This document shows positions 22,584 to 48,441 of a stretch of DNA of 64,000 bases, one piece after another. Made by a program: the position numbers and the translations under genes. Within the stretch, counting starts at the first letter, position 1. Each line of letters begins with the position of its first letter. A model generated the notes under the pieces. That model saw nothing but the letters and a program-made list of their open reading frames with translations. It made no database searches and was not told where the DNA came from. The stretch comes from Halobacteriales archaeon QH_7_66_36 (lineage in GTDB: Archaea; Halobacteriota; Halobacteria; Halobacteriales; Haloarculaceae): assembly GCA_003021175.1 (NCBI GenBank), contig PXQV01000015.1, positions 120,170-184,169 of the forward strand, read 5' to 3'.

Positions 22584-23555
22584 ATGACGACCGGCGTCGT
22601 GGGTCGGCGTGTGCGCTCGTCAGTCCGACCGCTCGCGCTCGCGCTGTTGCTCGTCGTCGCCGGCTGTAGCGGGGCGACGGTCGACACGCCAACTGCGGGT
22701 GACAAGACGCCCCGTGCGGCCGCGCCAGCGACCCCCGGGCCGGTCGTGACGGCGACGGTCACCCGAGTCGTCGACGGCGACACGCTGGAGATCCGGTTCG
22801 AGAACGGCACCGAAGACACCGTTCGACTCGTCGGGGTCGACACCCCCGAGGTCCACGTCGAGACACAGCCGGACGAATTCGAGGGCGTCCCGAACACGAC
22901 GGCAGGCCGCGCCTGTCTCCGGCAGTGGGGTGAGGCCGCCAGCGACCGGACGAAGCGGCTGGACGGCAAGCAGGTCGGCCTCGCCTTCGATCCGAATCTC
23001 GACCGGCGCGGCTACTACGGTCGGCTGCTCGCCTACGTCGTGTACGACAACGCGAGCCTCAACTACGGGCTGATCGCCGACGGCCTCGCCCGCGTCTACG
23101 AGTCCGACTTCACGCGACGACCAGCCTACGAGGACGCGGAAGCCACCGCCGCGAGCGCGGGCACGGGCCTGTGGGAGTGTGCCTCGGACACACCGTCGAC
23201 AGACGCCACCGGGACGGTGACCGCGAACGAAGCCGGGTTGGCCGTCAGCGTCCACGCCGACGCCGAGGGGAACGACGATGAAAACCTCAACGACGAGTAC
23301 GTGACGCTGACGAATCGAGGAGCGGAGCCGGTCGACCTCGCCGGGTGGACCGTCGTCGACGAGGCGGGCAAGACCTACGAGTTCGGCTCCCTGACGCTCA
23401 ACCCGGACGCGAGCGTCTGGCTCCACACCGGCTCCGGGACCGACACCGACACCGATGTCTACTGGGGGCGGTCGGGCGCGGTGTGGAACAACGACGGCGA
23501 CACGGTCACCGTCCGGGCCGCGAACGGGACGGTGGTCGCCGAGCGGTCGTACTAG
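22584..23555 (+). CDS. Secreted thermonuclease-like (SNase) lipoprotein with C-terminal lamin-tail (LTD) domain
   Basis: This 323-residue protein has a signal peptide ending in the lipobox VVAGCSG (Cys at about 31). The SNase domain follows, with RVVDGDTLEIRF, VRLVGVDTPEV (catalytic Arg and Glu) and RRGYYGRLLAYVVYDN (second catalytic Arg). After a linker, the C-terminal 110 residues form an LTD domain (DEYVTLTNRGAEPVDLAGWT, WLHTGSG). It is probably anchored outside the cell and degrades nucleic acids, perhaps for nutrient use. It overlaps the convergent nob1 gene by 4 nt. Confidence 0.88.
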   Translation: MTTGVVGRRVRSSVRPLALALLLVVAGCSGATVDTPTAGDKTPRAAAPATPGPVVTATVTRVVDGDTLEIRFENGTEDTVRLVGVDTPEVHVETQPDEFEGVPNTTAGRACLRQWGEAASDRTKRLDGKQVGLAFDPNLDRRGYYGRLLAYVVYDNASLNYGLIADGLARVYESDFTRRPAYEDAEATAASAGTGLWECASDTPSTDATGTVTANEAGLAVSVHADAEGNDDENLNDEYVTLTNRGAEPVDLAGWTVVDEAGKTYEFGSLTLNPDASVWLHTGSGTDTDTDVYWGRSGAVWNNDGDTVTVRAANGTVVAERSY

Positions 23556-24013
23556 CTGGGATTCTTCCGTTCGAGGTCGGCTCCGCACACCTCACACCGC
23601 TCGCGGTGGCTGTCGTAGACGCGGCCACAGCCCTGACACTGGTAGTCCCAGCTTCGTTGCTCGTCGATGCCGTCCTGCGAGATGCTCTCGGTGGCCACGT
23701 CGAGTTCGTCGGCGACGTTCTGCATCGCGTAGTCATCGGTGACCAGCGTCGCGCCGAGCTCGAAGGCGGCGGCGAGGAGTCGAACGTCGGTGTCGGAGAG
23801 TTCGGTGAAGTCGCCGGTACTGCGGGCGGCCCGCTCCACCTGCGCGAGCGGCCCTTCGCCGGGGACGTGGAGTTGCATCCCGGCACCCTCCAGCGCGTCG
23901 AAGCGGTAGCCGGAGGAGTCGTCGGTGAGTTCCTCGCGGACGGCGGGCACCGTCGCTACCGCTTCGTCGGTGGTGTAGTCGTCGATGAACGCGGAGGCGT
24001 CCAGAACGTGCAT
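23552..24013 (-). CDS. nob1: Endonuclease Nob1 (PIN domain plus zinc ribbon)
   Basis: This 153-residue ribosome-maturation nuclease trims the 3' end of 16S rRNA. The PIN domain carries acidic active-site residues in LDASAFIDDY, ELSDTDVRLLAAA and LVTDDYAMQNVA. The C-terminal zinc ribbon is CQGCGRVY followed by CEVCGADL. The size is usual for archaeal Nob1. It overlaps the PRC-barrel gene upstream by one base, so the two genes are coupled. Confidence 0.92.
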   Translation of the reverse strand: MHVLDASAFIDDYTTDEAVATVPAVREELTDDSSGYRFDALEGAGMQLHVPGEGPLAQVERAARSTGDFTELSDTDVRLLAAAFELGATLVTDDYAMQNVADELDVATESISQDGIDEQRSWDYQCQGCGRVYDSHRERCEVCGADLERKNPS

Positions 24014-24356: not shown

Positions 24357-24821
24357 ATGGATCGTCGAACGTTCCTGCGTGGCGTCGCCCCGGTCGGAGC
24401 CATCGCCGTAGCCGGCTGTAGCGGCGGCGAATCGACCGAAACCGAGGCGTCGACAGACACACAGACTGCAACGGAGACGGCGACGGCCACGCCGACATCG
24501 ACGGTCGAGGAGACGGCGACGGCCACGCCGACCGCGGAACCTGACATGACGGTGACGGTGGCACCCGGCGGGAGCCTCCGGTTCGACCCGGAGACGTTCA
24601 CCGTCGCGGCCGGCGACACCGTCCAGTGGGCGTGGGAGTCGTCCGGCCACAACGTCACGCCGGGGAGCGCCCCGAGCGGGAGCGACTGGCAAGGGAAGAC
24701 CGACGACCTCTACAGTTCTGGGACGACCTACGCCCACACGTTCGAGGTCGCCGGCGAGTACGAGTACTACTGCGAGCCCCACCGCTCCTCGGGGATGGTC
24801 GGGTCGTTCACCGTCGAGTAG
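24357..24821 (+). CDS. hcp: Halocyanin (blue copper lipoprotein)
   Basis: This 154-residue plastocyanin-like protein has an RR motif (MDRRTFLRG) and lipobox AVAGCSG (Cys at about 21), so it is Tat-exported and lipid-anchored. A Thr/Glu linker of about 40 residues precedes the copper domain. The ligands are all visible: His in ESSGHNVTP, Cys in YEYYCEPH, His in the same motif and Met in SSGMVG. It carries electrons on the outer face of the membrane. A TATA-like CATTTAGG about 25 nt upstream suggests a leaderless transcript. Confidence 0.92.
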   Translation: MDRRTFLRGVAPVGAIAVAGCSGGESTETEASTDTQTATETATATPTSTVEETATATPTAEPDMTVTVAPGGSLRFDPETFTVAAGDTVQWAWESSGHNVTPGSAPSGSDWQGKTDDLYSSGTTYAHTFEVAGEYEYYCEPHRSSGMVGSFTVE

Positions 24822-24840
24822 CGGCGGAAACGCGCGGTGG

Positions 24841-25089
24841 TGTCCAAATAACAGTGACTCTGGGGAGTAGGAGGACGACGAGGTGTAGAAAGCCCCCGGG
24901 CGCTGCGGTCGCGCGGCTCGCTGTGCTCCGCAGCCTCTCTGTGGTCGGCTTGCGGTGTCCTCGCGCGGCACCGCCGCGCGAGGACACCGCAACGAAGTGA
25001 GGAGCGCAGCGAGGCCCGGAAGTCGAGCCGCCGGGGGCTTCCAAGCTCGTTACACTGGCTGTAGCGGCTCCTCCGATCTTATCTGAACA
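24841..25089 (+). repeat. Hairpin-rich intergenic element, copy G (inverted right arms, 41-nt perfect palindrome)
   Basis: The left end TGTCCAAATAACAGTGACTC and the inner GGTGTAGAAAGCCCCCGG are the reverse complement of the right arm of copy E. The right side (GGGGGCTTCCAAGCTCG through TTATCTGAACA) is the right arm type of copy F, so this copy is bounded by two right arms facing opposite ways. Between them, 24951-24991 is a perfect palindrome with 19-bp arms and a 3-nt loop. No core GGGACTGGAAGG is present. It lies between halocyanin and uvrB. Confidence 0.82.
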
Positions 25090-25170
25090 CTGCCCGCACT
25101 TCGACTCGTCTTGACACAGAACTGAGAGGTGAACGAGCGGCTGAAGTGGCCCGGACCCTTCGTGTCGGTA

Positions 25171-27225
<2,055 letters not shown>

Positions 27226-27567
27226 GTCACACTCCAACGATCCTGCAGATGTGAATGGTTGCAGAATGCGGAGGTTCAACTATCACCTACAGTTGAGGGC
27301 ATCCGGTACGAGGATTCTCAGAATACAATGACAAAAATTGAATATATTTTATCGACAGCGAGCGGCCATGCAGAACCGGATTTTCCAACGTGACGGCAGG
27401 TCGGCTGTTCGATTCTTCATCATTCAATATCTGCCCCAGTGTTCGGTCAGGACAGTACTAAGCTATAATTTCTCGGGTGAGACAACTGAGGTAACGCTTA
27501 GACGGCTTTGCTGCGCGACAGGATAATTGCCACAAGGCACTTGTTTAGAACTATTTCATTCTGAATT
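27226..27567. other. AT-rich spacer between uvrB and a membrane-protein gene
   Basis: This is a 342-nt stretch that is clearly richer in A and T than the rest of the window, for example AAAAATTGAATATATTTTAT near 27334-27353. Several TATA-like strings are present, including ones near 27540-27565 that could drive the downstream gene. No convincing protein is encoded; a 62-codon frame at 27338-27526 has no acidic bias and ends without a family match. It probably belongs to the same foreign or relaxed patch as the next gene. Confidence 0.5.
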
Positions 27568-28155
27568 ATGAATTTGAACGACCGACAGTTTGCGCTAATA
27601 TGCGGAGCGTGGGCACTCGCGTTGCTTGGTGGCGTCGGGGCTGTCGGGTATATCGAGACGAGTGGGAGTGTGGCTCCACTGTCGGTCGTTGTCGGGATCA
27701 GTGGCGTGGCTGGTGCTATTTTTCTCGGCGTGCTTGCCGTCGCGTTGGTCACCATCGAGCACAGCGACGTGACCCGACAGATTCCAGGGGCTATCGCTGT
27801 TGCTACAGGTGGATTCATCGCTATTGGGGGAATCATTGCACTGCAGCCTTGGGCGCGTACAGGGCTCGCGGGGGGTGTTGCCAGTATATTCGCAGCAATT
27901 GTCGGCGGATCTGGAGCACTGCTAGTAATCGTCGGTGGCGTCAGTATTCAGAGCCGTCGGGTCAAACCGCCTCTCTACGCGTGTGCGATCATGTGGTGCG
28001 GTGGCTGGATTTACACGGCGCAGCTCAGTACGATTATTATGACCCGGTATAGTGTACCTCTCGCTACCATCATCTTGGTAGTCACCGGAGGGCCACTAAT
28101 CGGCATCAGCACCTGGTCGCCTCCGGATAAGACTGGGCCCTCACCGGCGCAGTAG
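27568..28155 (+). CDS. Six-helix membrane protein of unknown function, low-GC
   Basis: This 195-residue protein has about six hydrophobic segments, roughly at 9-30, 36-63, 72-95, 101-127, 134-153 and 157-178. It is rich in Gly, Ala, Ile and Val, with short polar ends and no recognisable motif. Codon use is less GC3-biased than in neighbours, and the upstream spacer is AT-rich, suggesting recent acquisition. It lies between convergent uvrB and uvrC and has no functional link to them that I can see. Confidence 0.65.
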   Translation: MNLNDRQFALICGAWALALLGGVGAVGYIETSGSVAPLSVVVGISGVAGAIFLGVLAVALVTIEHSDVTRQIPGAIAVATGGFIAIGGIIALQPWARTGLAGGVASIFAAIVGGSGALLVIVGGVSIQSRRVKPPLYACAIMWCGGWIYTAQLSTIIMTRYSVPLATIILVVTGGPLIGISTWSPPDKTGPSPAQ

Positions 28156-28282
28156 CCCGAACGAGAGCTGAAGAAGGACGAGTTGCCTCAAGGTTTTCTC
28201 GCTTCACTATATCGCTGACACGGATCTGCTCGTCGGCGGTCGTCATCGGTGCGTCGACGCGACTTAGTCGTCAGATCCTGCG

Positions 28283-30010
28283 CTACAGCCGTGCGGCAAT
28301 CGTCGCGGCCGTCGCCGGCCCGACGCCGTCGACTTCGCCGAGTTCCTCCTCGCTGGCCTCGCGGACGCCGTCGACGCTGCCGAAGCGGCGGAGGAGCCGC
28401 TTCCGGAGCGCCGGGCCGACGCCGGGCAGGTCGTCGAGCGTCGTCGACACCGCGTCGCGGACCTGCTGGTGGTAGGCGACCGCGAACCGGTGGGCCTCGT
28501 CGCGGACGCGCTGGAGCAGGCGGAGGTGGTCCGCGTCGCTGGAGAAGTCGCGGACGCCGTCGGGCGTGACGACCAACTCTTCCTCCTTCGCGAGACCGAC
28601 GGCAGGCACCGACCAGCCGACCGCATCGAGCGCGTCCCGTGCGGCGGTTAGCTGTCCCTCGCCGCCGTCGATGAGCAGGAGGTCCGGGTCGGGGCGATCG
28701 TCGCGCCCCTCGACGGCGCGCTCGGCCCGCCACCGCACGAGCCGTCTCATGTTCGCGTAGTCGTCGTTCTCGTCGGTCAGTTTCTTGCGTCGATAGTCCG
28801 CCTTCGCCGCCTCGCCGTCGACGAAACAGACGTCCGACCCGACGACGGCCTTTCCGCCCGCGTGGCTCACGTCGAACCCCTCGATTCGGTCGGCGGCGTC
28901 GATGTCCAACTCCGCCGCGAGTCGCGCACACTCGTCCGACCGGCCGGTCTGTCGACGGGCGTTCTTGAGTGCGAGGTCGACCAGCGTCGCCTCGCGGCCC
29001 GCGCCGGGGACGCGCACCGCCGTCCCCTCGCGCTCCAGCCAGTCGACGACGCCGGCGTCGTCCGGGCGCTCCTGTAGGAGGACGGCGTCGGGGAGCGCTC
29101 GCTCGGCGTAGAACTGGGGCAGAAACGCCGACAGCAGCGGGGCGACCTCTCGCACCTCCGAGGCGGCGACGGAGTGGCGCTCTCGGTCGACGAGCTTGCC
29201 GCGCTCGCTCACGAGGCGGGCGACGGTCGCGTCGCTGCCCTCGATGGCGACGCCGAGCACCTCGACGCGTTCCTCGCCGTCGCCCTGTATCGCGGCCGCG
29301 CCGCTCCCGTGGAAGGACTCGACGGCTGTCAGCCGGTCGCGGAGGTTCGCCGCGCGCTCGAAGTCGCGGTCCTCGGCGGCGGCTTCCATCGCCTCACGCA
29401 TCGGGTCGGTGAGGATGCCGGTCTCGCCGTCGAGGAATCGGCGGACGCTCTCCACGTCGCTGATATACTCGTCCGCGTCGACGTAGTCGACGCAGGGGGC
29501 CGTACAGAGGCCGACCTCGTAGTCGAGACACGGGCGGTCGCGGTTCGAGAACTTGTGGTCCGAACAGCCGCGGACGCCGAACGTCTCGCGGAGCGCCTTC
29601 ACCGCCGTCTCGACGCGCCCCTTGTTCGTGTACGGGCCGAAGACGGTCGCGGCGTCGTCCGGGTCGCGCGTCACCTCGATCCGCGGAAACTCGTGGTCGG
29701 TCAACTGCACCAGCGGATAGGATTTGTCGTCCTTCAGCCGGACGTTGTACTTCGGCTGGAACCGCTTGATCAGGTTGGCTTCGAGCAGCAGCGCCTGCGT
29801 CTCCGTCTCGGTGACGGAGAAGTCGATCCGCGCTGCGCTCTCGATCATCCGTCGGATCCGCTCGCCGCGCGGGGTGGCGTACGAGCGGACGCGGTCGCGC
29901 AGATCCACCGCCTTCCCGACGTAGAGGACGCTCTCGCCCCGCTCGAACTGGTAGACGCCGGGCTTCGTCGGCAGTTCGTTCGCCCGTCGTCTCACCGCGT
30001 CGGTGTCCAC
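28283..30010 (-). CDS. uvrC: Excinuclease ABC subunit C
   Basis: This 575-residue endonuclease makes both incisions in nucleotide excision repair. The N-terminal GIY-YIG nuclease has [24 protein letters not shown] domain lies at about 200-235, and the RNase H-like domain includes [20 protein letters not shown] and [10 protein letters not shown]. Tandem helix-hairpin-helix motifs at the end read [18 protein letters not shown] and [16 protein letters not shown]. All catalytic regions look intact. It faces uvrB across the AT-rich patch. Confidence 0.95.
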
Positions 30011-30048
30011 ACCTCGGTTACGGCGCTCGGGGGTTTCAGCGTGTCGCG

Positions 30049-31564
30049 GTGGTCGTGGCTACCCCTCCTCTGGTCGACGCGTCCGTGCTCGGGACCACTC
30101 CCGCGCCCCAGCATATAGTAGATAGACGCACACTCCCGCGAGGGATCGGAGTCGCCGCGGCTGCCACCGTCGGAGCGGGAACCGCGAGCGGGGAAACGGC
30201 GGCCGAGCGCGCCCGCGGTCGGCTGTCGAAGCGCGGTCACTCGCTGCTCTCGGACCCGCCGGGCAGCTACGGCGAGGCGGCCGTCCGCGCCGACGGTCGC
30301 TACGCCGTGATGGGAAGCTTCTACGGCACCGGCGGCTCGTTCCTCGTCGACCTCTCCGACCCGGCGAATCCGACCGAGGTCCACGCCTCGAATCCGCCGC
30401 GACGACGCGCAATCCGGACGTGACCTTCGGCGCTCGCGACGGCATCTACTACCGGACGCAGGAGCCGAACGAGGAGGGCGGTGCCGGCGGGGTCGAACTC
30501 GTCGACTACGGCTTCGACGCCGGCAGTCCAACGGAGCCGGTCGTCGCCGGCCGCATCGACAGGCCAGAGGGCGTCCACAACGTCGAGGCCCACCCCACGG
30601 AACCGGTGTTGTACGTCGTCAACGGGCGGGACGGCGGCGGCGAGGTCGGACTGACCGTCTACGACACCGCCGACCCGACCGCGCCAGAACAGGTGGCGTC
30701 GGCCGTCGACGGCCGCGGCAACCACGACATCACCTTCGACGCGGAGCGCGACCTGATCCACTCGGCGTTCATCGACGGCGACTTCGTCGGCTGGATCGGG
30801 CACGACGTCTCCGACCCCACGAACCCCAAGGAGGTCGGCCGCTTCTCGTACGCCGGACGGCCGGGCTACGACTCGCTCGATACGGCCGGCTTCGGGTCGT
30901 GTCACTACGCCCGCGCCGACCCGGAGCGAGACCTGCTGTATCTCGGCGACGAGACGGCGCAGGACGTCCCGGCGGCAAACACGTCCTCGACATCGGCTAC
31001 GGCGAGGGCTCGCTCTCGGAGCCGCGCCACCTCAGTTTCGCCCGCGCGCCGAACGCACAACTCCAGGACAGCGACGACGCGCTGTACGACTGGACGACCC
31101 ACAATCACGACATCGTCCACACCGGCGACGCGAGTCTGCTCGTCGACGGCAGCTACCACGAGGGCGTCGTCGTCTTCGACGTGACCGACCCGACCGACAT
31201 CACGCCGGGCCACCAGTATCTCACGGTGGATGAGGCGCCCGATGCGCAGGGTGCCGCGTGACTCGGGAGCGCCTCGATGGTGTGGAACGCCGAGTACGAC
31301 CCGGCCAACGACGTGATCGTCGCCGCAGACATGAACACGGGCATCTACACCTTCGACGTCTCCGCCGAGCGACAACCCGTCTACAGCATCGAGGAATCCG
31401 TCGACCTGAACGGTGACGGCGACCTCCAGAAGCGGGAGTTCCAGCGCGCCATGTCCTACTGGGTCCGCGAGGAGACAGTGCTCAACACCGGGCCCGCGGG
31501 GAACAACGAGGCCATCGACGCCGCGACCGCCCGCGAGCTGATGGCGTGGTATCGCCGCTCCTGA
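30049..31564 (+). pseudogene. LVIVD-repeat (beta-propeller-like) Tat-exported protein, broken by two frameshifts and a nonsense codon
   Basis: The frame opens with a Tat-like signal (VDRRTLPRGIGVAAAATVGA). Propeller repeats of the LVIVD type follow (GGSFLVDLSDPANPTEV, LTVYDTADPTAPEQV, IGHDVSDPTNPKEVGRF, VVVFDVTDPTDITPG). The frame shifts by -1 near 30395-30420 and again near 30965-30975, where GTCCCGGCGGC would read V-P-G-G with one more C. An in-frame TGA at 31259-31261 stands where AAWLGSASMVWN would be expected. The end is MAWYRRS. The codon before VDRR is ATA, possibly a lost ATG start. A functional copy would be a surface protein of about 480 residues. Confidence 0.82.
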
Positions 31565-31609
31565 TTCCGGCGGCGACAGTCTGAACAGCCTGCCCGTCAC
31601 ACTCCGGGT

Positions 31610-31861
31610 GTGCCCAGATGCTGGCTCGTGGAGCGGTCGTACGACGACCGCGACCTCGTAACGCTCGTGTACGCCACCCCGGACGGGGAACGCGCGGTGA
31701 GGAAGGAGGTGCCGATGACCGCCATCTCACAGGGAACGATGACGGTCACCGCGGCGAAGACGGTCGATGAGGCCGACCTCAAGCCCGTCGAGACGGTCGA
31801 GCGGTATCGGCGTGAAGTTGCGCGTGTCCGCGGGAGCCACCCCCCCGACGACGAGATATAA
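31610..31861 (+). CDS. Conserved small haloarchaeal protein of unknown function
   Basis: This 83-residue protein starts at GTG (MPRCWLVERSYDDRDLVTLV). A beta-rich first half, with YATPDGERAVRKEV, is followed by a charged helix (DLKPVETVERYRREVARVRG). It has no membrane segment or known motif. It is followed closely by the ABC transporter promoter. Haloarchaeal composition supports it as real, but the function is unknown. Confidence 0.65.
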   Translation: MPRCWLVERSYDDRDLVTLVYATPDGERAVRKEVPMTAISQGTMTVTAAKTVDEADLKPVETVERYRREVARVRGSHPPDDEI

Positions 31862-31890
31862 AGCCGGCGGCCGCTGCCGTGTCTGAAACC

Positions 31891-31900
31891 ATATATAATA
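31891..31900 (+). promoter_or_regulatory. TATA box of the ABC-2 transporter operon
   Basis: ATATATAATA lies 21-30 nt upstream of ATG 31921. It is a strong archaeal TATA sequence and fixes that ATG as the start of a leaderless mRNA; an in-frame GTG at 31879 would lie upstream of transcription start. Confidence 0.65.
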
Positions 31901-31920
31901 GCACGCCGAACGGTCACTAC

Positions 31921-32829
31921 ATGACTGCTATCGAGCTGTCGAACGTCACCAAGCAGTACGGTGATGTCGTCGCCCTCCACAACCTCGACATGACGGTCGA
32001 ATCGGGAGAGGTGTACGGCTTCCTCGGGCCGAACGGCGCGGGGAAGTCGACGACCATCGACATCCTCCTCGATTTCGCCCGGCCGACCAGCGGCGAGGTG
32101 CGCGTGCTCGACCGGGACGCACGCGAGGAGAGCGTCGCCGTCCGCCAGCGGTGTGGCGTCCTGCCCGAGGGGTTCGACACCTACGAGCGGCTGACCGCGC
32201 GCAAACACGTCGAGTTCGCCGTCGAGTCGAAGGGGACCGACGACGACCCGGTCGCACTGCTCGAACGCGTCGGTCTCGGCGACGCGATCGACCGACAGGC
32301 CGGCGGCTTCTCGAAGGGGATGACACAGCGGCTCGCGCTCGCGGTGGCGCTCGTCGGCGACCCGGAGCTGCTGGTGCTCGACGAGCCGTCGACCGGGCTG
32401 GACCCGAACGGAGCCCGCGAGATGCGGACCATCGTCCGCGAGGAGGCCGACCGCGGCGCGACCGTCTTCTTCTCCTCGCACGTGCTCGGACAGGTCGAGG
32501 CCGTCTGTGACCGGGTCGGCATCCTCCGCGACGGGAAGCTCGTGGCCGTCGACTCCGTCGAGGGACTGCGCGAGGCGAGCGACACCGGCACGCGCCTCGA
32601 AATCGAGACGAGCGGCGTCGACGACGAGGCGCTCGCGGCCGTACGCGAGACCGAAGGCGTCTCCGAGGCGCGCGCCGAGGGGTCGCTCGTCGTCGCCACC
32701 TACGCCGGCGACGCGAAGATGGACGTGGTGAACGCGCTGGAGGACGCCGGTGCCGACGTGGCCGACTTCTCCACGAGCGAGGCGTCGCTCGAAGACGTGT
32801 TCGCCGCCTACACGGAGGGGGAGCGATGA
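31921..32829 (+). CDS. ABC-2 type transporter ATP-binding protein
   Basis: This 302-residue ATPase of the DrrA/NatA type has Walker A GPNGAGKST at about 39-47, signature FSKGMTQRLALAVAL at about 132-146 and Walker B LLVLDEPSTGLDP. After a switch His in FFSSHVLGQVEAV there is a C-terminal domain of about 80 residues (LREASDTGTRLEIETSGVDD) typical of exporters. It forms a pair with the next gene, which it overlaps by 4 nt. Substrates of such haloarchaeal pairs are mostly unknown; copper (NosF/NosY) is one known case but there is no nos context here. Confidence 0.88.
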   Translation: MTAIELSNVTKQYGDVVALHNLDMTVESGEVYGFLGPNGAGKSTTIDILLDFARPTSGEVRVLDRDAREESVAVRQRCGVLPEGFDTYERLTARKHVEFAVESKGTDDDPVALLERVGLGDAIDRQAGGFSKGMTQRLALAVALVGDPELLVLDEPSTGLDPNGAREMRTIVREEADRGATVFFSSHVLGQVEAVCDRVGILRDGKLVAVDSVEGLREASDTGTRLEIETSGVDDEALAAVRETEGVSEARAEGSLVVATYAGDAKMDVVNALEDAGADVADFSTSEASLEDVFAAYTEGER

Positions 32830-33728
32830 CGAGTCTCGACCCCGACTCCGTCCGCGCGGTCGCGCGGAAGGACTTCGAGGACGCGGTCCGGTCGCGCACG
32901 CTGCTCCTGCTCGGGGGCGTCTTCGTCGTGTTCTTCCTCGCGGCCGCCTTCTTCTTCACTGACCTGCTCGGCACTGCGGGCGGTCAGGGACAGGGGCCAC
33001 AGCTCACCTCAAACAGCTTCCTGCGGTCGCTGTCGAACGTGACGCGGCTGCTCGTCCCGCTGACGGGCGCGGTCGTCGCGTACGCGTCGGTAATCAGGGA
33101 GCGGGAGTCTGGCTCGCTGAAGCTCCTGCTGTCGCTGCCGCACTCGCGGCTGGACGTGCTCGCCGGGAAGCTGCTCGGCCGGGGAGCCGTGCTCACCCTG
33201 CCGGTGGTGCTCGGGCTGTTAGTCGCGGTGCCGCTGTTCCCGGTCGCCGACATCCCGTTCGACGCGGGCACCTATCTCTTCTTCACGGCGCTGACCGTCC
33301 TCGTCGGACTGACGTTCGTCGGTATCGGACTGGGTGCGAGTGCCGCCGCGACGACCGAACGCCGGGCCGTCGTCGGCACGTTCGTCCCGTACGTCCTCTT
33401 CAGCCTGCTGTGGGGACAGATCCTCAACCGCGCCACACAGCGGCTCTCGGAGGCGCTCGACCTCCAGCAGCAGGGAACCCTCGAGGCGTACTTCCTACTG
33501 CGGGCGCTCAACCCGCTGGCCGCGTACAAGATGGTCGCTTCGAACATCGGCTCGCCGCAGGCCCAGCTCCAGCTGTTCGGCCCGCCCTCACGCCAGCAAG
33601 CGTACGTCCAGCAGTTCGGCGAGCTGCCGTGGTATCTCACCGACGGCGCGCTGATCGGCGTCCTCGTTCTGTGGATCGTCGTCCCGGTCGCGCTCGGCTA
33701 TCTCGTCTTCGAGCAAACGGACCTGTAA
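32826..33728 (+). CDS. ABC-2 type transporter permease
   Basis: This 300-residue integral membrane partner of the preceding ATPase has about six helices. They start with RTLLLLGGVFVVFFLAAAFF after the typical cytoplasmic opening VRAVARKDFEDAVRSR. A large loop between the first two helices precedes the conserved VIRERESGSLKLLLSLPHSR segment seen in NosY/ABC-2 permeases. A second extracytoplasmic stretch lies at about 200-270. It is probably one half of a homodimeric exporter. Confidence 0.87.
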   Translation: MTSLDPDSVRAVARKDFEDAVRSRTLLLLGGVFVVFFLAAAFFFTDLLGTAGGQGQGPQLTSNSFLRSLSNVTRLLVPLTGAVVAYASVIRERESGSLKLLLSLPHSRLDVLAGKLLGRGAVLTLPVVLGLLVAVPLFPVADIPFDAGTYLFFTALTVLVGLTFVGIGLGASAAATTERRAVVGTFVPYVLFSLLWGQILNRATQRLSEALDLQQQGTLEAYFLLRALNPLAAYKMVASNIGSPQAQLQLFGPPSRQQAYVQQFGELPWYLTDGALIGVLVLWIVVPVALGYLVFEQTDL

Positions 33729-33800
33729 TCCACGCTCGTGTGTATTCTGGCTCGAATCGAGAACCGAAACCACCATACTCGCACAACTCCGGGTAGACGC

Positions 33801-34511
33801 ATGAACCGAGCCGAGAAGGCCGCCCTCCAGCTGCAGGCCGTCGACGTGTTGCGGACGCTGAAGGAGACGCGCACCTACGAGGAACTCGCCGAGGAGACCG
33901 GCTTGCCGGCCGGCGATCTCAACCGCTACGTGAACGGGCACGTCCTGCCGGGCGTCGACCGCGCGGAGGCCGTCGTCAGCGGCGTCGGCCGCGAGACGCT
34001 CGCCGCGGAACTGCGAGCGCGCGTCGAACTGGACGCCGACGGCTACATCGACAACTCGCGGGTCGTCTTCGACCAGTCGCTTTTAGACCTCGTCGCGCCG
34101 GTGGCGTCCAGTAGCTTCGGCTTCGACCAGCCGGACATCGTCCTCACGGCGGCGACGGACGGCATCACGCTCGCGGCCGCGATGGCATCACACTTCGGCG
34201 CGACCGTCGCCTACGCCAAGCAGTCGAAGGAGACGGCCGTCGAGGAGTTCATCGAGTCGCGCCAGCGACTGGATTCGGGCATCGAACTTACCTACTATCT
34301 CCCGGCCGAGGCCGTCGACACCGGTCAGCGCGTGCTCGTCGTCGACGACCTCATCCGCTCGGGCGAGACGCAGGAGCTCCTCCTCGACATCGCCGATCGG
34401 GCCGGCGCGGAGTTGGCCGGCGTCTTCACGCTCATCGCGGCCGGCGAGGAGGGGATCGGTCGCGCCGAGGAACGGGTCGACGCGCCGGTCGGTGCGCTCG
34501 TCACGCTCTGA
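33801..34511 (+). CDS. GfcR-like HTH-phosphoribosyltransferase transcriptional regulator
   Basis: This 236-residue protein has an N-terminal helix-turn-helix (TYEELAEETGLPAGDLNRYV). A phosphoribosyltransferase-type domain carries the PRPP loop VLVVDDLIRSGET at about 176-188. Regulators of this design, including GfcR of haloarchaea, use the PRTase fold as a ligand sensor. The NCS2 purine permease 81 nt downstream suggests a role in purine or PRPP-dependent control. The ATG at 33801 is used because the upstream in-frame extension is spacer-like. Confidence 0.82.
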   Translation: MNRAEKAALQLQAVDVLRTLKETRTYEELAEETGLPAGDLNRYVNGHVLPGVDRAEAVVSGVGRETLAAELRARVELDADGYIDNSRVVFDQSLLDLVAPVASSSFGFDQPDIVLTAATDGITLAAAMASHFGATVAYAKQSKETAVEEFIESRQRLDSGIELTYYLPAEAVDTGQRVLVVDDLIRSGETQELLLDIADRAGAELAGVFTLIAAGEEGIGRAEERVDAPVGALVTL

Positions 34512-34554
34512 CGTAGTTTCACTTTCTTGCATATATCTGCGCTCTCAGAGGGCA

Positions 34555-34562
34555 ATTCTTAA
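34555..34562 (+). promoter_or_regulatory. TATA-like box of the NCS2 permease gene
   Basis: ATTCTTAA lies about 31-38 nt before ATG 34593. A second TATA-like ATATAT at 34531-34536 is further upstream. Either could place transcription start within the 40 nt before the gene. Confidence 0.4.
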
Positions 34563-34592
34563 CACGACCCTGCACGCAGGACCGTCCACGCC

Positions 34593-36053
34593 ATGGGTGT
34601 AACAGCGAGGCTCGCCGACTACTTCGGCTTCGAGGAGCACGGGACGGACCTCGCGACGGAGGTCCGTGCGGGGGTGACCACGTTCCTGACGATGAGCTAC
34701 ATCGTCGTCGTGAACCCGGCGATCATGGTCGACCAGCCCGGCACCGAGTTCCTCGACGGCATCGCCGTCGAAGGCGTGTCCGCCGCACAGCTCGAACAGA
34801 AACTCGCCGTCATCACCATCCTCGCGGCGTTCACGGCCACGCTCATCATGGCGCTGTACGCGAACCGGCCGTTCGCGCAGGCACCGGGACTGGGGCTGAA
34901 CGCCTTCTTCGCGTTCACCGTCGTCGGGGCGCTCGGCGTCCCGTGGCAGACGGCGCTCGCGGCCGTCGTCGTCGAGGGAGTCATCTTCCTGCTGTTGACC
35001 GTCGCCGGCGCGCGGAAGTACATCATCGAGGCGTTTCCCGAACCGGTGAAGTTCGCCGTCGGCGCGGGGATCGGTGCGTTCCTCGCCATCATCGGACTGG
35101 AGGCGATGGGCATCGTCGTGTCGGACCCAGCGACGTACGTGACGCTCGGCTCCGTCGCCTCCGACCCGGTCGCGATCCTCTCGGTTGTCGGGCTGTTCTT
35201 CACGCTGGCACTGTACGCGCGCGGCGTCCGCGGGTCGATCATCATCGGCATCGTGGCGACGACGCTCGCGGGCGCCGTCGTCACCTTCCTCGGACTGGTT
35301 GACCCGGGCGTCGTCGCGTCGCCGGCCGTCCAGAACGGCGGCTTCGACGCGAGCCAACTCACCTCGCCGGACTACAACATCGCGCCGCTCGGCGGGGCGT
35401 TCGTCTCGGGGCTCGTCGGCGCTCCGGCGGCGAACCTCGACGCGTTCGCCTTCGGTCTCATCGTCTTCACATTCTTCTTCGTCGACTTCTTCGACACCGC
35501 CGGCACGCTCACCGGCGTCGGGCAGGCGGCCGGCTTCCTCGACGGGGAGGGGAACCTTCCGGAGATAGAGAAGCCGCTGCTCTCCGACGCGGTCGGCACC
35601 ACCTTCGGCGGGATGCTCGGCACGTCGACGGTGACGACGTACGTCGAATCCGCGACGGGCGTCGAAGAGGGCGGCCGGACGGGGATGACGGCGCTCGTCG
35701 TCGCGGGGCTGTTCCTCGCCTCGCTTGCGCTCGTCCCGCTGGCGGCCACCATCCCGCTGTACGCGAGCCACATCGCGCTCGTCGTCGTCGCGGTGATCAT
35801 GCTCGGCAACCTCACCGACATCGACTGGGACGACGTGACGCAGGCCGCGCCGGCCGGGATGACCGTCCTCATCATGCCGTTCACGTTCAACATCGGCTAC
35901 GGCATCGCCGCGGGCATCATCACCTACCCGATCGTGAAGGCCGCGACGGGCGAGTTCGAGGACATTCGCCCGCTGCAGGTGGTGCTCGCCGCGCTGTTCG
36001 TCGTCTACTTCTTCGTCCGCACGGGCGGGGTCCTCTCCGGCATCGGGGGGTGA
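34593..36053 (+). CDS. NCS2 family purine permease (AzgA/PbuG type)
   Basis: This 486-residue transporter has about 13 hydrophobic segments. Motifs of the AzgA branch are present: GVTTFLTMSYIVVVNPAIM near the N-terminus, APGLGLNAFFAFTVV at about 94-108, FFVDFFDTAGTLTGVGQAAG and GTSTVTTYVESATGVEEGGR. That branch moves hypoxanthine, guanine or adenine by proton symport. It follows the PRTase-type regulator, which is likely to control it. Confidence 0.92.
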   Translation: MGVTARLADYFGFEEHGTDLATEVRAGVTTFLTMSYIVVVNPAIMVDQPGTEFLDGIAVEGVSAAQLEQKLAVITILAAFTATLIMALYANRPFAQAPGLGLNAFFAFTVVGALGVPWQTALAAVVVEGVIFLLLTVAGARKYIIEAFPEPVKFAVGAGIGAFLAIIGLEAMGIVVSDPATYVTLGSVASDPVAILSVVGLFFTLALYARGVRGSIIIGIVATTLAGAVVTFLGLVDPGVVASPAVQNGGFDASQLTSPDYNIAPLGGAFVSGLVGAPAANLDAFAFGLIVFTFFFVDFFDTAGTLTGVGQAAGFLDGEGNLPEIEKPLLSDAVGTTFGGMLGTSTVTTYVESATGVEEGGRTGMTALVVAGLFLASLALVPLAATIPLYASHIALVVVAVIMLGNLTDIDWDDVTQAAPAGMTVLIMPFTFNIGYGIAAGIITYPIVKAATGEFEDIRPLQVVLAALFVVYFFVRTGGVLSGIGG

Positions 36054-36090
36054 CCCTCCCACGCGTCGGAAATCCCGACGGGTATCAGTA

Positions 36091-36097
36091 GGTTAAA
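36091..36097 (+). promoter_or_regulatory. TATA-like box of the AstE-like gene
   Basis: GGTTAAAG lies about 28-33 nt upstream of ATG 36124, consistent with leaderless transcription. Confidence 0.4.
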
Positions 36098-36123
36098 GCG
36101 GGTTTGGACCCCCGGTTTCGCTA

Positions 36124-37080
36124 ATGACGACCCTCGGAACGGCGACGGCCGCCCCCGGTGAGCAGGCGGTGGGCCAGCTGCCGGTGGGCGAGGCCCGCGA
36201 CGGCTCCGAGGTGTCTCTCCCCGTCTGTGTCGTCAACGGCGAGCGCGACGGGAAGACGCTCTACGTGCAGGCGGTCTCGGACGGCGACGAACTCAACGGA
36301 CTCGGCGTCGTGCAGCAGCTCGTTCCCCGCCTCGACCCCACACAGATCGCCGGCGAGATTCGTATCGTCGGCATCGCCAACTGGTACGGCTTCCAGATCG
36401 CCGAGCATCGCAACCCCATCGACGACACGAAGCTCAACCGCGCGTACCCCGGCGACGAGAACGGCACCGCCAGCGAGCGCATCGCCGCCGCCACCTTCTC
36501 CGCGGCCGTCGATGCCGACCTCGCCTTGGACATGCATCAGGGCTCTACCAGCCGGATGATCGACGAGGTGCGGGTCCGCTGTGGCCGCCGCCACCGCCTC
36601 CACCGCGACTGTCTCGACCTCGCGAAGACGTTCGACGCCGGCCACGTCCTCGATCAAAAGGGCCCCGACGGCCAACTCGCCCGCGCGCTCCCCGACGAGG
36701 GCGTCCCCGTCATCGACCCGGAACTCGGCGGCTCAGTCGGCTGGGACGAGGAGTCGATTCGGCTGGGCGTCCGCGGGACGATGAACGTCCTCACGGCGTA
36801 CGGCTTCCTCGACGGGAGCGTCACCGCCGGCGAGCAGACGCGCGCCGGCAGCTTCGACCAGTACGGTTCCCCCGCGGGCGGTCTCGTCGACTTCCACGTC
36901 GGGTTGGGCGACGAAATCAGCCGCGGCGACACGCTGTTCGAGGTGACGGACGCGTTCGGCACCGTCGAGGAGACGGTCACCGCCGACGGCGACGGCCTCT
37001 TCTGGCGGTCGCGACGACTCCCGCAGGTCGCCACCGGCGAGTACGTCTGCTCTGTTGGCACCGACATCGACCAATACTGA
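36124..37080 (+). CDS. Succinylglutamate desuccinylase/aspartoacylase-family protein
   Basis: This 318-residue protein belongs to the AstE/AspA branch of M14-like zinc hydrolases: NPIDDTKLNRAYPGDENGT, ADLALDMHQGSTSR (zinc His) and a C-terminal beta domain with FEVTDAFGTVEE. In well-studied members the first zinc motif is H-G-x-E. Here the equivalent stretch reads VSDGDELNG, so the first His seems to be replaced by Ser, although Glu is kept. Activity is therefore uncertain. It probably acts on an N-acylated amino acid or related amide. Confidence 0.8.
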   Translation: MTTLGTATAAPGEQAVGQLPVGEARDGSEVSLPVCVVNGERDGKTLYVQAVSDGDELNGLGVVQQLVPRLDPTQIAGEIRIVGIANWYGFQIAEHRNPIDDTKLNRAYPGDENGTASERIAAATFSAAVDADLALDMHQGSTSRMIDEVRVRCGRRHRLHRDCLDLAKTFDAGHVLDQKGPDGQLARALPDEGVPVIDPELGGSVGWDEESIRLGVRGTMNVLTAYGFLDGSVTAGEQTRAGSFDQYGSPAGGLVDFHVGLGDEISRGDTLFEVTDAFGTVEETVTADGDGLFWRSRRLPQVATGEYVCSVGTDIDQY

Positions 37081-37149
37081 GCCGGCCACCGTCCCGGCGG
37101 CCTGTTCTGAGGCCAAACGCACTTGCCCGCGGCCCGCGTTCGTGTCGCT

Positions 37150-37527
37150 ATGGAGTGTGAGCGCTGTGGCGGGCCGATGACGCGGTATCAGGTGCCCTTC
37201 GACCTCCGGAGCCACGTCGAGACGGACCACGCGGCGACGTGTACGCGGTGTCTCGCCGGCCACCCGGCGGAGGCCGGCGGCGAGCCGGACTTCTCGACGA
37301 TCTCAGACGAGTTTCCGGACGGGACGGCCGGCGCGGCGATGGCGCTCGCGCTCGGCAAACTCGACTCGCTCGCGCTCAACCGGGACGACATCGAGGCGCT
37401 GTTCGCCGCCGTCGAGGCGGCCGGCGTGGACCCGCTGTTGGTACTCGACCGGCTGGCGACACAGGGAAACGTCCGGCTCCACTTCGACGCGGACCGGCGA
37501 CGCCGACAGCTCGAACAGCTGCTCTAG
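37150..37527 (+). CDS. DUF6276 family protein
   Basis: This 125-residue haloarchaeal protein opens with a zinc-ribbon-like [10 protein letters not shown], and CTRCL follows at about residue 31-35. Next come [20 protein letters not shown] and [21 protein letters not shown], typical of DUF6276. Its function is unknown. Its stop overlaps that of the convergent lrp gene by 4 nt. The start chosen is the ATG immediately before the first CxxC. Confidence 0.8.
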
Positions 37528-37976
37528 ACGTCTAACTCGAACTGTTCGCCCTCGACGACGGCGTTGAGGACGACACTGGTGTTCGACTCCATGATGTCCG
37601 GGTCGACGAGCAGTTCCTTGATCTGTTCGTTCATGTGGTCCGTGTCGGTGAACTTCCCGATGGCGATGATGTCGTGGTCGCCAGTCACCTCGTAGACGGA
37701 GGTCATCCGCTCGTGTTTCTGCAACCGGTCAGTGATCTCCGTGAGCGCCGAGCCTTCGCATTTCAGCTGGATGATCGCCGTCACGTCGTAGCCGAGTTCG
37801 CCGTAGTCGACGACCGGGGTGTAGCCGTCGATGATCCCCGCCTCCTCCAGATCCGAGATGTGGTTCGACACTGTGGTGACGCTCACGTCGAGCTCCTCCG
37901 CGAGCGAGCGGAGCGAGGCGCGACCGTCCCGCAGGAGTGCGTTCACTAGCTTCCGGTCGAGGTTTTCGTACGTCAT
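37524..37976 (-). CDS. lrp: Lrp/AsnC family transcriptional regulator
   Basis: This 150-residue regulator has an N-terminal HTH ([20 protein letters not shown]) and a C-terminal RAM/AsnC ligand-binding domain ([20 protein letters not shown]). It is divergent from glnA across a 127-nt spacer. Haloarchaeal Lrp proteins next to glnA are known to regulate glutamine synthetase, so control of glnA in response to amino acids is the likely job. The ATG at 37976 ([14 protein letters not shown]) is preferred to one three codons upstream. Confidence 0.9.
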
Positions 37977-38064
37977 TACACTCACCCTCGCCAGCCACCT
38001 ACTACAAGTTTACGAATATCCAGTTCTCTGGCAACCATGGCGGCTTTTGCGAGGATGGATAGGG

Positions 38065-38075
38065 TTTTAATAATT
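38065..38075 (+). promoter_or_regulatory. TATA box of glnA in the lrp-glnA divergent spacer
   Basis: TTTTAATAATT lies about 29-39 nt before the glnA ATG at 38104. Next to it, GTTCGAAATAGGTGTTCCAA at about 38081-38100 is an imperfect repeat of GTTC motifs that might be an Lrp contact site. The latter is inference only. Confidence 0.5.
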
Positions 38076-38103
38076 CGGATGTTCGAAATAGGTGTTCCAA
38101 ACG

Positions 38104-39465
38104 ATGACAGCGAAACGTACACCCGACGGCGGCCTCTCGACCGAGGCACAGCGCGTCCTCGACGAAATCAACGAAGAGAACGTAGAGTTCCTGCGGCTCC
38201 AGTTCACCGACATCCTCGGCACGACGAAGAACGTCTCCATCCCCGCCGAGCAGGCGGAGAAGGCGTTCACCGAAGGTATCTACTTCGACGGCTCCTCCAT
38301 CGAGGGGTTCGTCCGGATTCAGGAGTCGGACATGCGGCTCAAGCCGGACCCGACCACGTACGCGGTGCTTCCGTGGCGGGACGGTCGTTCCGCGCGGCTC
38401 ATCTGCGACGTGATCAACACCTCGACCGACGAGCCGTTCGAGGGTGACCCGCGGCGCGTCCTGCAGAACGCGCTCGACCGGGCCGCGGAACACGGCCTCA
38501 CGGTCAACGCCGCGCCCGAACCGGAGTTCTTCCTCTTCGAAGAGGACGAGGACGGCCGCGCGACGACGAAGACGAACGACGCGGGCGGCTACTTCGACCT
38601 CGCGCCGAAGGATCTCGCGAGCGATGTCCGGCGTGACATCATCTACGGGCTCGAAGACATGGGACTCGACGTCGAGGCGAGCCACCACGAGGTCGCACAG
38701 GGGCAACACGAGATCAACTTCACCTACGACGACGCCCTGACGACGGCCGACAACGTCAGCACCTTCCGGACGGTCGTTCGCGCCATCGCGGCCCAACACG
38801 ACCTCCACGCGACGTTCATGCCCAAGCCCATCCCGCGGGTCAACGGCTCCGGAATGCACACCCACATCTCGCTGTTCACCGAGGACGGCGAGAACGCCTT
38901 CCACGACGAGGACGACGAGTTCAACCTGAGCGAGACGGCAAAGCAGTTCACCGCCGGCATCCTCGAACACGCGCCTGCACTCGCGGCCGTCACGGACCCG
39001 ACCGTGAACAGCTACAAGCGGCTCGTCCCCGGCTACGAGGCACCCGTCTACGTCGCGTGGTCCGACCGGAACCGCTCGGCGCTCATCCGCAAGCCCGCCG
39101 CGCGCGTCCCGGCCGCCTCCCGCATCGAGGCGCGCTTCCCCGACCCGTCGTGTAACCCGTATCTCGCCTTCGCCGTGCTGATTCACGCCGGTCTCGACGG
39201 CATCGAGAAGGGGCTCGACTGCCCCGACCCGATCCGAGAGAACATCTACGAGTTCGACGAGCAGAAGCGCGAGGAGTACGGCATCAACACGCTGCCGACG
39301 AACCTCGGTGAGGCCGTCGACGCGCTGAAGGAAGACGAGGTCGTCCTCGACGCGCTCGGCTCGCACGTCAGCGAGAAGTTCATCGAGGCGAAGGAGTCCG
39401 AGTTCGAGGACTACCTCGTCGACGTCTCCGACTGGGAGCTCGACCGCTACCTCGAGACGTTCTAA
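38104..39465 (+). CDS. glnA: Glutamine synthetase (type I)
   Basis: This 453-residue enzyme makes glutamine from glutamate, ammonia and ATP. Family signatures in order: [57 protein letters not shown], and [20 protein letters not shown] with the catalytic Arg residues. The length matches haloarchaeal GlnA. The adjacent divergent lrp suggests regulation by amino-acid status. A T-run follows the stop. Confidence 0.95.
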
Positions 39466-39481
39466 GCCCCGACCAGCGCTC

Positions 39482-39486
39482 TTTTT
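39482..39486 (+). terminator. T-run terminator after glnA
   Basis: CTCTTTTTCC lies 16 nt after the glnA stop. A run of five T residues in a GC-rich spacer is a reasonable archaeal terminator. Confidence 0.45.
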
Positions 39487-39540
39487 CCGAAGCGACCCCG
39501 CGCGGCGTACATTTATACCCGAGAACGCGGCCAGCGGTCC

Positions 39541-39638
39541 CGTGCTCTGACGACGAGCGTGGAGCGGCCAAGACGGGAGCCCCGCGGCTCGACCGCCGCG
39601 TGCGATGCACCGCTCCACGAACGGCCACGCGTCGCCTG
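39541..39638 (+). ncRNA. Candidate small structured RNA between glnA and the PAP2 gene
   Basis: A TATA-like ATTTATAC (39511-39518) stands about 25 nt before a stretch with strong pairing potential and no open frame of note. CGTGGAGCGG (39558-39567) is the exact complement of CCGCTCCACG (39610-39619), a 10-bp stem closing a loop of about 42 nt. Inside it CGCGGC and GCCGCG form a nested hairpin around 39583-39600. I cannot assign it to H/ACA, C/D, SRP or RNase P. It may be an untranslated regulatory RNA or chance structure. Confidence 0.3.
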
Positions 39639-40526
39639 TTAGCTATGCTGTCGTGCGATGAGCGGCGCAGCGAGTATCGCCGCGAGCGCGAGCGCGTTCC
39701 CGAGGAACCCCGCGACCGGCGTCTCGATGGCGACGCCGGCGGCGAAGAACGCGCCACCACCGACGAGGCCGAGTAGCGTCGCGACTGCCCCCTCGCGACG
39801 CGTATCTGGGCCGGCGAGTCGGCCACCGACGACCGTCCACGTCAGTCGCCCGCCGAGCGCGCCGCCGAGCGCCGCGGCCGTCTCGAAGTCGAAGTGCGTC
39901 GCGACCCCGACCAGCGCGACGACGAGCGCGAGCGAGAACGCCCGCTTGACCCGCTCGCCGGCCGCGAGTCGCCAGACGAGCGCGAGATACGCGCCGCCGA
40001 CGACGAGGCCGACGACCACGTCGCCGAGATAGTGGACGCCGATGACGACCCGAGAGAACGCCACGAGCGCGACGATGCCGGCCGCGACCGCGTAGCGGAC
40101 GCGCCGGCGACCGATCCGGAGGCCGAGAGCGGCAGCACCGTAGACGGCTGCGCTTCCGGTCGCGTGGCCCGACGGGAGCGCGAACCCGTCGCCGGTCGCC
40201 ACGCTCTCCCAGACGGGCACGAGAAGCTCTGGAAGCCACGCGAGTTCGCGGGCGGTTTCCGCACCCGGTGGTCGCGGGTGCGCGAACAGCTCTTTCAGTC
40301 CCGTCGTGAGCGCGATGACGCCGAGCGCGACCGCGATGACGAAGCCGATCCGCTCGCGCGTCACCCTGTCGCCGACTCGCGGCAGCGTGCCCGCGAAGCA
40401 GTACGCGACCGCGAGCGTGACGAGATAGAACCACACGTCGCCGAGCTGTGTGACGAGCGCGAAGAACACGACGACGGCGTCGGGCAGATCACGGAGCGAT
40501 GCCGTGACGCCGATGCCGTGGCTCAT
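39639..40526 (-). CDS. PAP2-family membrane phosphatase
   Basis: This 295-residue phosphatidic-acid-phosphatase-like protein has about eight membrane segments. The three catalytic motifs are present: KELFAHPRP (motif 1), LPSGHATGSA (motif 2) and SRVVIGVHYLGDVVVG (motif 3, with the catalytic His). It may dephosphorylate prenyl or lipid phosphates. The ATG at 40526 lies within a 4-nt overlap with the BrkB-like gene upstream, so the two are cotranscribed. Confidence 0.9.
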   Translation of the reverse strand: MSHGIGVTASLRDLPDAVVVFFALVTQLGDVWFYLVTLAVAYCFAGTLPRVGDRVTRERIGFVIAVALGVIALTTGLKELFAHPRPPGAETARELAWLPELLVPVWESVATGDGFALPSGHATGSAAVYGAAALGLRIGRRRVRYAVAAGIVALVAFSRVVIGVHYLGDVVVGLVVGGAYLALVWRLAAGERVKRAFSLALVVALVGVATHFDFETAAALGGALGGRLTWTVVGGRLAGPDTRREGAVATLLGLVGGGAFFAAGVAIETPVAGFLGNALALAAILAAPLIARQHS

Positions 40527-41749: not shown

Positions 41750-41795
41750 GACGACCGATTCGGTGACGGGCTACAAATAAGCCGCGGGACGCCGG

Positions 41796-42920: not shown

Positions 42921-42981
42921 ACCCCGACTCCCGGCGCGGCGGCGAAAAGCCACACGGATGTTCGTGGCGCGGACCAGTCGT

Positions 42982-44865: not shown

Positions 44866-44912
44866 TGCCACGGCTCCGTGACGCGCCAGTATATGTGTTC
44901 GGCTCGCACGGC

Positions 44913-45143
44913 TCAGTCGGTCACGCGGCGCGCAACGGCGAGCGCGACGGCCATGCCGACGCCGACCAGCCTGACGCGTCGCGGTGCGGCCTCGGCCGGC
45001 TCGAACTCGACGGCCAGCCCGAGTCGGTACGCGCGGGTCGCGAGTCCCAACAGCAGTCGCGGCGCGAGCAGATGGACGAGCGCGGCGACGGCGACGAGGA
45101 ATCCGCCGAGTCGCCGCTCCCGGTCGGTGAGACGGATCTCCAT
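44913..45143 (-). CDS. Small two-helix membrane protein of unknown function
   Basis: This 76-residue protein begins MEIRLTDRERRLGGFLVAVA and has two hydrophobic segments (about 15-40 and 58-72) separated by a charged loop. No motif is known to me. It stands between the exporter and the iron transporter ATPase on the same strand, 47 nt from each, and may be part of either transcript. The start codon chosen is the ATG at 45143. Confidence 0.6.
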   Translation of the reverse strand: MEIRLTDRERRLGGFLVAVAALVHLLAPRLLLGLATRAYRLGLAVEFEPAEAAPRRVRLVGVGMAVALAVARRVTD

Positions 45144-45190
45144 ACCGCAACGAGGGCCGGGGCGGACAAACGCTCCGGGGTCGCGGCGAC

Positions 45191-47219: not shown

Positions 47220-47248
47220 GCCCGACTCCCTCCGCGTGCATCTTGATT

Positions 47249-47262
47249 TTAGGTCTACCTAA
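47249..47262. promoter_or_regulatory. DtxR/IdeR-like iron operator upstream of the permease gene
   Basis: TTAGGTCTACCTAA is a perfect inverted repeat (7 + 7) located 30-43 nt before the permease start on the minus strand. It matches the TTAGGYNNNCCTAA type of element bound by DtxR-family iron regulators, including those of haloarchaea. It overlaps the expected TATA region (CCTAAAATC on the minus strand), so binding would repress transcription. Confidence 0.75.
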
Positions 47263-47291
47263 GTTCCCAAAAGGCGTTCGATTCGCGGCGG

Positions 47292-48401: not shown

Positions 48402-48415
48402 ACCTCTCCCGTCAT

Positions 48416-48432: not shown

Positions 48433-48441
48433 GCATCGATC

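Follow-up and report, generated by a model that had tools for sequence, protein, structure and literature searches.

The stretch of DNA analysed here (the window, 64,000 nucleotides) carries a 259-bp element, which we call element G, between a halocyanin-like gene (24357..24821, plus strand; Pfam Copper-bind) and uvrB (25171..27225, plus strand; the listed open reading frame opens at 25129). A conserved gene that we take to be Nob1-like (23552..24013, minus strand) lies to the left of the halocyanin-like gene; its match to NCBIfam PRK12496 falls below the cut-off.

Element G (24836-25094, plus strand) is complete and bounded by terminal inverted repeats (TIRs) close to GGTAGTGTTCAGATAAG. The left repeat, GGTGGTGTCCAAATAAC (24836..24852, plus strand), has four mismatches to this sequence, and the right repeat, GGCAGTGTTCAGATAAG (25078..25094, minus strand), has one; both were found in the TIR scan, and the right one is also among the TIR matches of the genome. 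The repeats extend the element slightly beyond 24841-25089, the bounds given in an earlier note on this DNA that had recognised the copy. Between them lie an L1-type arm (24853..24959, plus strand), a 23-nt hairpin module consisting of CTCGCGCGG-CACCG-CCGCGCGAG (24960..24982) and an L2-type arm in reversed orientation (24983..25077, minus strand). The hairpin lies within a perfect palindrome of 43 nt (24950..24992) with a 20-bp stem and a 3-nt loop; the same note had seen the perfect pairing and the loop correctly, and had put the stem at 19 bp and the whole at 41 nt. The element is flanked by the 8-bp sequences AAACGCGC on the left (24828..24835, plus strand) and CGCACTTC on the right (25095..25102, plus strand).

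The two sides of the element are opposed, as had been described. The left side (24885-24959) contains GTAGAAAGCCCCCGG, with which copies at 82-96 and 49860-49874 end in the opposite orientation, and the right side contains the reverse complement of CTTGGAAGCCCCCG; positions 25030-25097 are 87% identical to 21493-21560. Both had been called right arms. In the polarity of the family, they are left-type arms of two different kinds, L1 and L2, that point toward each other.

No other perfect stem of at least 12 bp with a loop of 0-12 nt was found in the window, which makes that of the palindrome the longest there. Besides that of element G, the 936,971 bases of redundant, overlapping loci contain one perfect stem of 14 bp or more whose loop is 3-8 nt long. 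Folded as DNA, the whole element reaches -82.7 kcal/mol (z = -7.6, 200 dinucleotide shuffles), which is far from chance. When 16 elements were folded and compared with mononucleotide shuffles, z was -8.0 for element G and -8.2 for a second chimera of the same form (its twin, described below); ordinary family members mostly gave values of +0.9 to -4.2, with three at -5.8 to -8.4. An RNA gene was rejected, as the seven Rfam matches to the element all lie far under the gathering scores. The palindrome had also been held to be unstable in replication. This argument is weak, since palindromes known to be problematic for replication are far longer than 43 nt with a 20-bp stem.

The repeat family and its IS6 relative

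We compared the genome that carries element G (G000; 2.6 Mb in 18 contigs) with four outgroup congeners (G001-G004) and a sister genome (G005). With up to three mismatches, the terminal repeat has 155 matches in G000 and 193 in G005, compared with none for the reversed control in either genome, and between zero and seven matches in the four other congeners. The loci analysed gave 66 TIR-bounded candidates of up to 750 bp, a set that includes overlapping calls of one element and from which we left out those without both terminal repeats, without the family signature, or too near the end of a locus. Agreement between the two flanks of these candidates is 0.50 at length 8 compared with 0.295 when the pairings are shuffled, and among lengths of 4-11 it exceeds the shuffles at length 8 only. 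The family therefore transposes with 8-bp target duplications. In 23 of the 66 candidates the 8-bp flanks match at six or more of the eight positions.

Ordinary members of the family are polar and consist of an L arm, a hairpin and an R arm. Classification of the arms gave 41 L1/R and six L2/R candidates, two L1/L2 candidates (element G and its twin) and no R/R candidate, with one arm unclassified in the remaining 17 of the 66. Minimal members are 128-129 bp, and in longer ones the centre holds inserted hairpin modules; the longest candidate listed is 611 bp. Element G contains no transposase gene. The family is also mosaic: after 11 of 81 candidates without a recognisable TIR had been dropped, the comparison of arms yielded 44 pairs with an inner identity of at least 0.9 and an outer identity of 0.51-0.91.

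A relative with a broken transposase gene is present in the congener G003 (L227). This 694-bp element is bounded by the terminal repeats GGTAGTGTTCAGATACG and GGCGGTGTTCAGATAAG, which differ from the family consensus at one to two positions, and its 8-bp duplication, CTTCAGCT, is perfect. The broken transposase inside it matches NF033587, the NCBIfam model for IS6, at 2e-40, above the cut-off. A second copy in G003, of 697 bp, has flanks that agree at three of eight positions and no perfect duplication, and its transposase fragment matches the same model at 4.9e-31, below the cut-off. A review of IS6 elements lists 8-bp duplications, GG tips, ends of about 17 bp and a TGTT motif, and gives archaeal members as about 700-750 bp and two known IS6 MITEs as 227 and 336 bp (PMC7986276). 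On these grounds we file the family as IS6-type MITEs, an assignment that is highly probable.

A search of G000 with PF13610, the one model used there, gave no IS6 transposase match. Open reading frames beside a TIR at C15:232-235 kb (L009) were considered as transposase candidates and look, by eye, like ordinary genes. A virus-borne element was rejected, as the hairpin pattern occurs in no stretch of viral contigs; the exact TIR occurs in four (L223-L226). Plasmid-borne relatives were likewise rejected: only six short matches were obtained, with a query coverage of 20-29%.

The hairpin junction, the twin and the gene order

In ordinary members, a left arm ending in GGTGTC is followed by CTCGCGCGG, 5 nt and CCGCGCGAG, and then, toward the R arm, by CGGGCC, or by CGGCCC or a close variant. 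In element G, L1 is joined to reversed L2 exactly at the common 23-nt hairpin. The boundary is evident when the element is used as a query against its own genome: L1-type matches that reach the hairpin stop at query position 112-113, L2-type matches that reach it begin at position 91, and the overlap (91-113) is exactly the hairpin, which is crossed by the twin only. The L003 element continues to the end of the hairpin with 93% identity over query 1-113, its outer and inner parts being 0.87 and 0.96 identical to the L1-type arm of element G (pair L031/L037). The L009 element starts at the hairpin with 98% identity over query 91-151, and L006, L019 and L023 are also similar to the L2-type arm. 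TTGCGGTGTC adjoins the hairpin in parental arms of either type (L003 for L1, L009 for L2), and the growth of the stem from 9 to 20 bp therefore needs no further change. Element G is very probably a chimera of L1 and L2 arms joined at the hairpin.

Of the 146 family genomes, nine contain polar hairpins, with 102 matches in total. For the head-to-head form there are two matches, both in a single one of these genomes, and its absence from the 145 others agrees with the first of the two alternatives in the earlier note, a recent or a maintained palindrome. The hairpin stretches of named uncultured Halobacteriales MAGs, a set of 37 that overlaps partly with the 146 genomes, are all polar; in none does the stem exceed 9 bp, and no second left arm occurs. 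In other Halobacteriales MAGs (L119-L155, for example L139, L141 and L148) the always polar hairpin module is found in repeats whose outer parts look different, and the module therefore seems to be common to several element families.

The twin is located at C15:319582-319839, 174 kb from element G (C15:145005-145263), and is inverted relative to it. The cores of the two are 98% identical over 178 bases and share about 100 identical consecutive bases; the outer ends are 0.68 (L1) and 0.91 (L2) identical, and the L1 outer end of element G is closer to that of L003 (0.87) than to that of the twin. A recent origin also accords with the 98% identity of the cores, given that the divergence from the sister genome at the DNA level is 5.3% for uvrB and 3.8% for recJ (alignments shorter than 300 bases dropped).

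The neighbours of the twin are recJ and a gene that, judged from its sequence, is probably infB. The gene order in G000 is thus halocyanin-element-uvrB and, at the far end, infB-twin-recJ. Comparison with the spacers of relatives, which the earlier note had proposed, fits an inversion: in G001, G002 and G003 the Nob1-like gene, a small open reading frame, the halocyanin-like gene and infB are adjacent, G004 has the same arrangement minus the halocyanin-like gene, and recJ adjoins uvrB in the sister genome, which is 67% complete and has neither infB nor the halocyanin orthologue. The order and orientations in G000 are therefore those that one 174-kb inversion between the two elements would leave. 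The apparently inverted segment (C15:145264-319581) would occupy 25095..64000 of the window and continue past it to the twin. By tblastn coordinates, the halocyanin-infB spacers of G001-G003 are about 55-64 nt and have no room for an element; the spacer of G000, rebuilt minus the element, is 65 nt.

The 8-bp flanks point the same way. Those of element G agree with each other at one of eight positions and those of the twin at three, and each flank pairs with one of the other copy: the halocyanin-side flank with the infB-side flank at six of eight positions, and the uvrB-side flank with the recJ-side flank at five. The probability of a summed match of at least 11 among random flank pairs of the MITE family is 0.0018, a value for flanks that had been compared by eye before the formal test. 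The 174-kb chromosomal inversion is probably genuine.

Proposed origin of the chimera and of the probable inversion

At the orthologous place, the sister genome contains a convergent pair in the order recJ-[L1-R]-8 bp-[R-L2]-uvrB, an arrangement that resembles a precursor of element G (the gap is counted as 7 bp when the element start is matched one base further in). Read from the sequence, the members of this tandem have no hairpin module, so that the pair is to be regarded as a relative of the supposed precursor and not as the precursor itself. Pairs with an 8-bp gap are also present in G000, as R/R at L018 and L024, as L1/L2 at L201 and, judged from coordinates, as another R/R in L169. A plausible route to element G is the loss of the DNA that separates the hairpins of two elements in convergent order.

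Our best account, which we hold at a little under even probability, is that a hairpin-mediated chimera underwent replicative inversion of the IS6 type in trans. The starting point would have been two convergent elements between recJ and uvrB, one L1-hairpin-R and the other R-hairpin-L2. As the hairpin is self-complementary, its two copies can act as direct repeats for deletion, and loss of the R halves between them would have left L1-hairpin-reverse(L2). An IS6 transposase, presumably supplied in trans, would then have worked on the chimera. With the halocyanin-infB spacer as its target, a single replicative transposition within the same molecule would have produced a second copy of the element, inverted the intervening 174 kb and given each copy one flank from the original site and one from the target. 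Intramolecular attack in trans by IS6 elements is described as inverting a segment and bracketing it with inverted copies, each with one original and one target flank (PMC7986276). The apparently inverted segment in G000 is bracketed by inverted copies in just this way, and the head-to-head form at only two places would be explained in one event.

Several observations do not fit this account readily. The chief one concerns the ends: a fresh copy should match its source throughout, and the outer ends of element G and its twin are only 0.68 and 0.91 identical, so that the replicative model needs a later turnover of the ends. Turnover of this kind is seen in the family at conserved sites of G000 and G005, for example at L007/L053. 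The target duplications, at six and five of eight positions, fall short of perfect, and the PF13610 search found no IS6 transposase in G000. A transposase in the same genome is helpful for a MITE and does not define one; the supply may be past or external. Whether the inversion arose by the replicative IS6 mechanism rather than by recombination is, in our judgement, about evenly balanced.

Homologous (ectopic) recombination is a less likely explanation. It supposes that an L1-L2 element already lay in the halocyanin-infB spacer, inverted relative to the one at recJ-uvrB, and that a break at a palindrome repaired by crossover produced both the inversion and conversion of the core. Opposite orientation of the copies and exchange of the 8-bp flanks are in keeping with this, as are the 98% core and diverged outer ends, which are roughly symmetrical about the palindrome, and the mosaic nature of the family as a whole. 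The same features are described for Galileo in Drosophila (PMC2775673), and inversion by recombination between IS copies is reported for Haloferax volcanii (PMC6063281). However, recombination presupposes that another L1-L2 element, of a form absent from the rest of the 146 genomes, stood where three outgroups have no insertion. If this second copy had transposed from the first, the diverged outer ends would be just as unexplained as under replicative inversion.

An assembly artefact, in which both L1-L2 elements are real and their flanks misjoined (the true order being halocyanin-element-infB and recJ-element-uvrB), is improbable. It too predicts exchanged flanks, and the run of about 100 identical bases common to both copies, the division of the assembly into 18 contigs and the fact that the arrangement is known here from the assembly alone all speak for it. 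Assemblers usually break at such repeats instead of crossing them. The earlier note had named an artefact as what would undo the palindrome; misassembly could account for the inversion, but it leaves the palindrome unexplained, which is present at two loci with sequence differences both outside and inside the core.

Least probable is the version of the earlier note, in which an inversion within one element would have given rise to a duplicate of an arm in the opposite orientation. Two left-type arms do face each other across the palindrome. However, a snap-back duplication would yield two identical arms, and the arms are the distinct subtypes L1 and L2, each with close relatives elsewhere that break off precisely at the hairpin. 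The presence of two arm types contradicts this version. What is supported of the note's proposal is recombination at the element and an inversion, the latter apparently of a 174-kb segment.

Known systems and turnover at conserved sites

Among known systems, IS6 (IS26) elements and their MITEs are similar in their GG-tipped ends of about 17 bp, their 8-bp duplications and the trans inversion bracketed by inverted copies (PMC7986276). Element G differs in having no transposase, with none detected in G000 by PF13610, in the high copy number of its family, and in being a head-to-head chimera with a 20-bp palindrome and nested hairpin modules inside. The inversions described so far for IS6 elements chiefly involve full-length IS26 on resistance plasmids. 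If our reading is true, this would be a MITE version in a haloarchaeon, in which non-autonomous copies, present by the dozen in a genome, can reorder chromosomes. The odd palindrome would then be a readable record of two events, the formation of a foldback by fusion at a self-complementary hairpin and its link to a large inversion, and the sister genomes would provide a natural before-and-after series for testing a MITE-linked inversion.

The foldback transposon Galileo of Drosophila resembles the present case in the two inverted copies at the breakpoints and the exchanged target duplications, and its foldback structure is proposed to invite breaks (PMC2775673). In contrast, element G is a 259-bp archaeal MITE associated with another transposase family. 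Numerous transposase-free mobile repeats (MITEs, PATEs and SMRs) occur in the haloarchaeon Haloquadratum walsbyi, where some MITEs lack a functional partner transposase and elements target other elements (PMC3119063). As characterised there, PATEs have neither terminal inverted repeats nor target duplications, and SMRs have no target duplication (PMC3119063), whereas the family of element G has TIRs and 8-bp duplications; element G is for this reason not a PATE. The two H. walsbyi strains are described in that context as completely syntenic, with no inversion (PMC3119063). Mitochondrial double-hairpin elements and GC clusters are similar as short mobile DNA made of GC-rich hairpins. To our knowledge, they have no IS terminal repeats and no 8-bp duplications. 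A search of open-licence papers on haloarchaeal and archaeal MITEs, palindromes and inversions found none that describes the G element or an archaeal inversion made by a MITE.

The history of the family may be read more widely, though here we are more tentative than on the replicative account itself: a MITE would have turned into a foldback by hairpin-mediated fusion of arms and then into an inversion machine, copying itself and flipping 174 kb in one step, in a family whose sites are fixed between species while the bodies are exchanged, flipped and hollowed out. At orthologous sites of G000 and G005 bounded by single elements, the identity of the bodies is about 0.75-0.85 and that of the flanks mostly 0.87-0.97, falling to 0.77 where a neighbouring element abuts. 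At one such site (L007/L053) the core is near-identical by eye and the outer ends are visibly diverged. As this decoupling of core and outer parts recurs at orthologous sites and throughout the family, the sharp boundary in element G and its twin is not diagnostic, and we do not take it as proof of core conversion specific to the pair. Similarity of the outer ends to the sister genome was likewise rejected as proof of chimerism between parental copies. The recJ-side end of G005 matches the twin at 36 of 55 positions and element G at 35 of 55, and the uvrB-side end matches element G at 38 of 60 and the twin at 36 of 53, which does not discriminate.

Other sites show further changes. L177 (G000, C14:207 kb) and L049 (G005) occupy the same site with flanks 94-97% identical and elements in opposite orientation (element identity 0.81 inverted compared with 0.69 direct). 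L176 (1441-1569) is a minimal element of 129 bp, and its orthologue L055 in G005 is 323 bp with a hairpin core. At L007/L053 and L185/L046, the subterminal 30-45 bp are much more divergent than the flanks, a pattern that looks like replacement or rapid mutation of the ends. A 267-bp stretch with terminal repeats at L192 (2050-2316) in G000 corresponds to 11 bp in L131 (G005) and is likely a recent insertion. Element pairs 8 bp apart (L018, L024, L169 and L201, and L064 in G005) comprise four R-to-R and one L-to-L, with none in direct orientation; possibly the duplication of an existing element served as the target.

The window also contains long arrays of hairpin modules that lie within the MITE family. 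Two copies with 74 identical nucleotides are located at 1-74 and 13566-13639, and 13373-13564 is 96% identical to 49642-49833 over 192 nt. The copy at 13.2-13.6 kb has no terminal repeat in the TIR scan.
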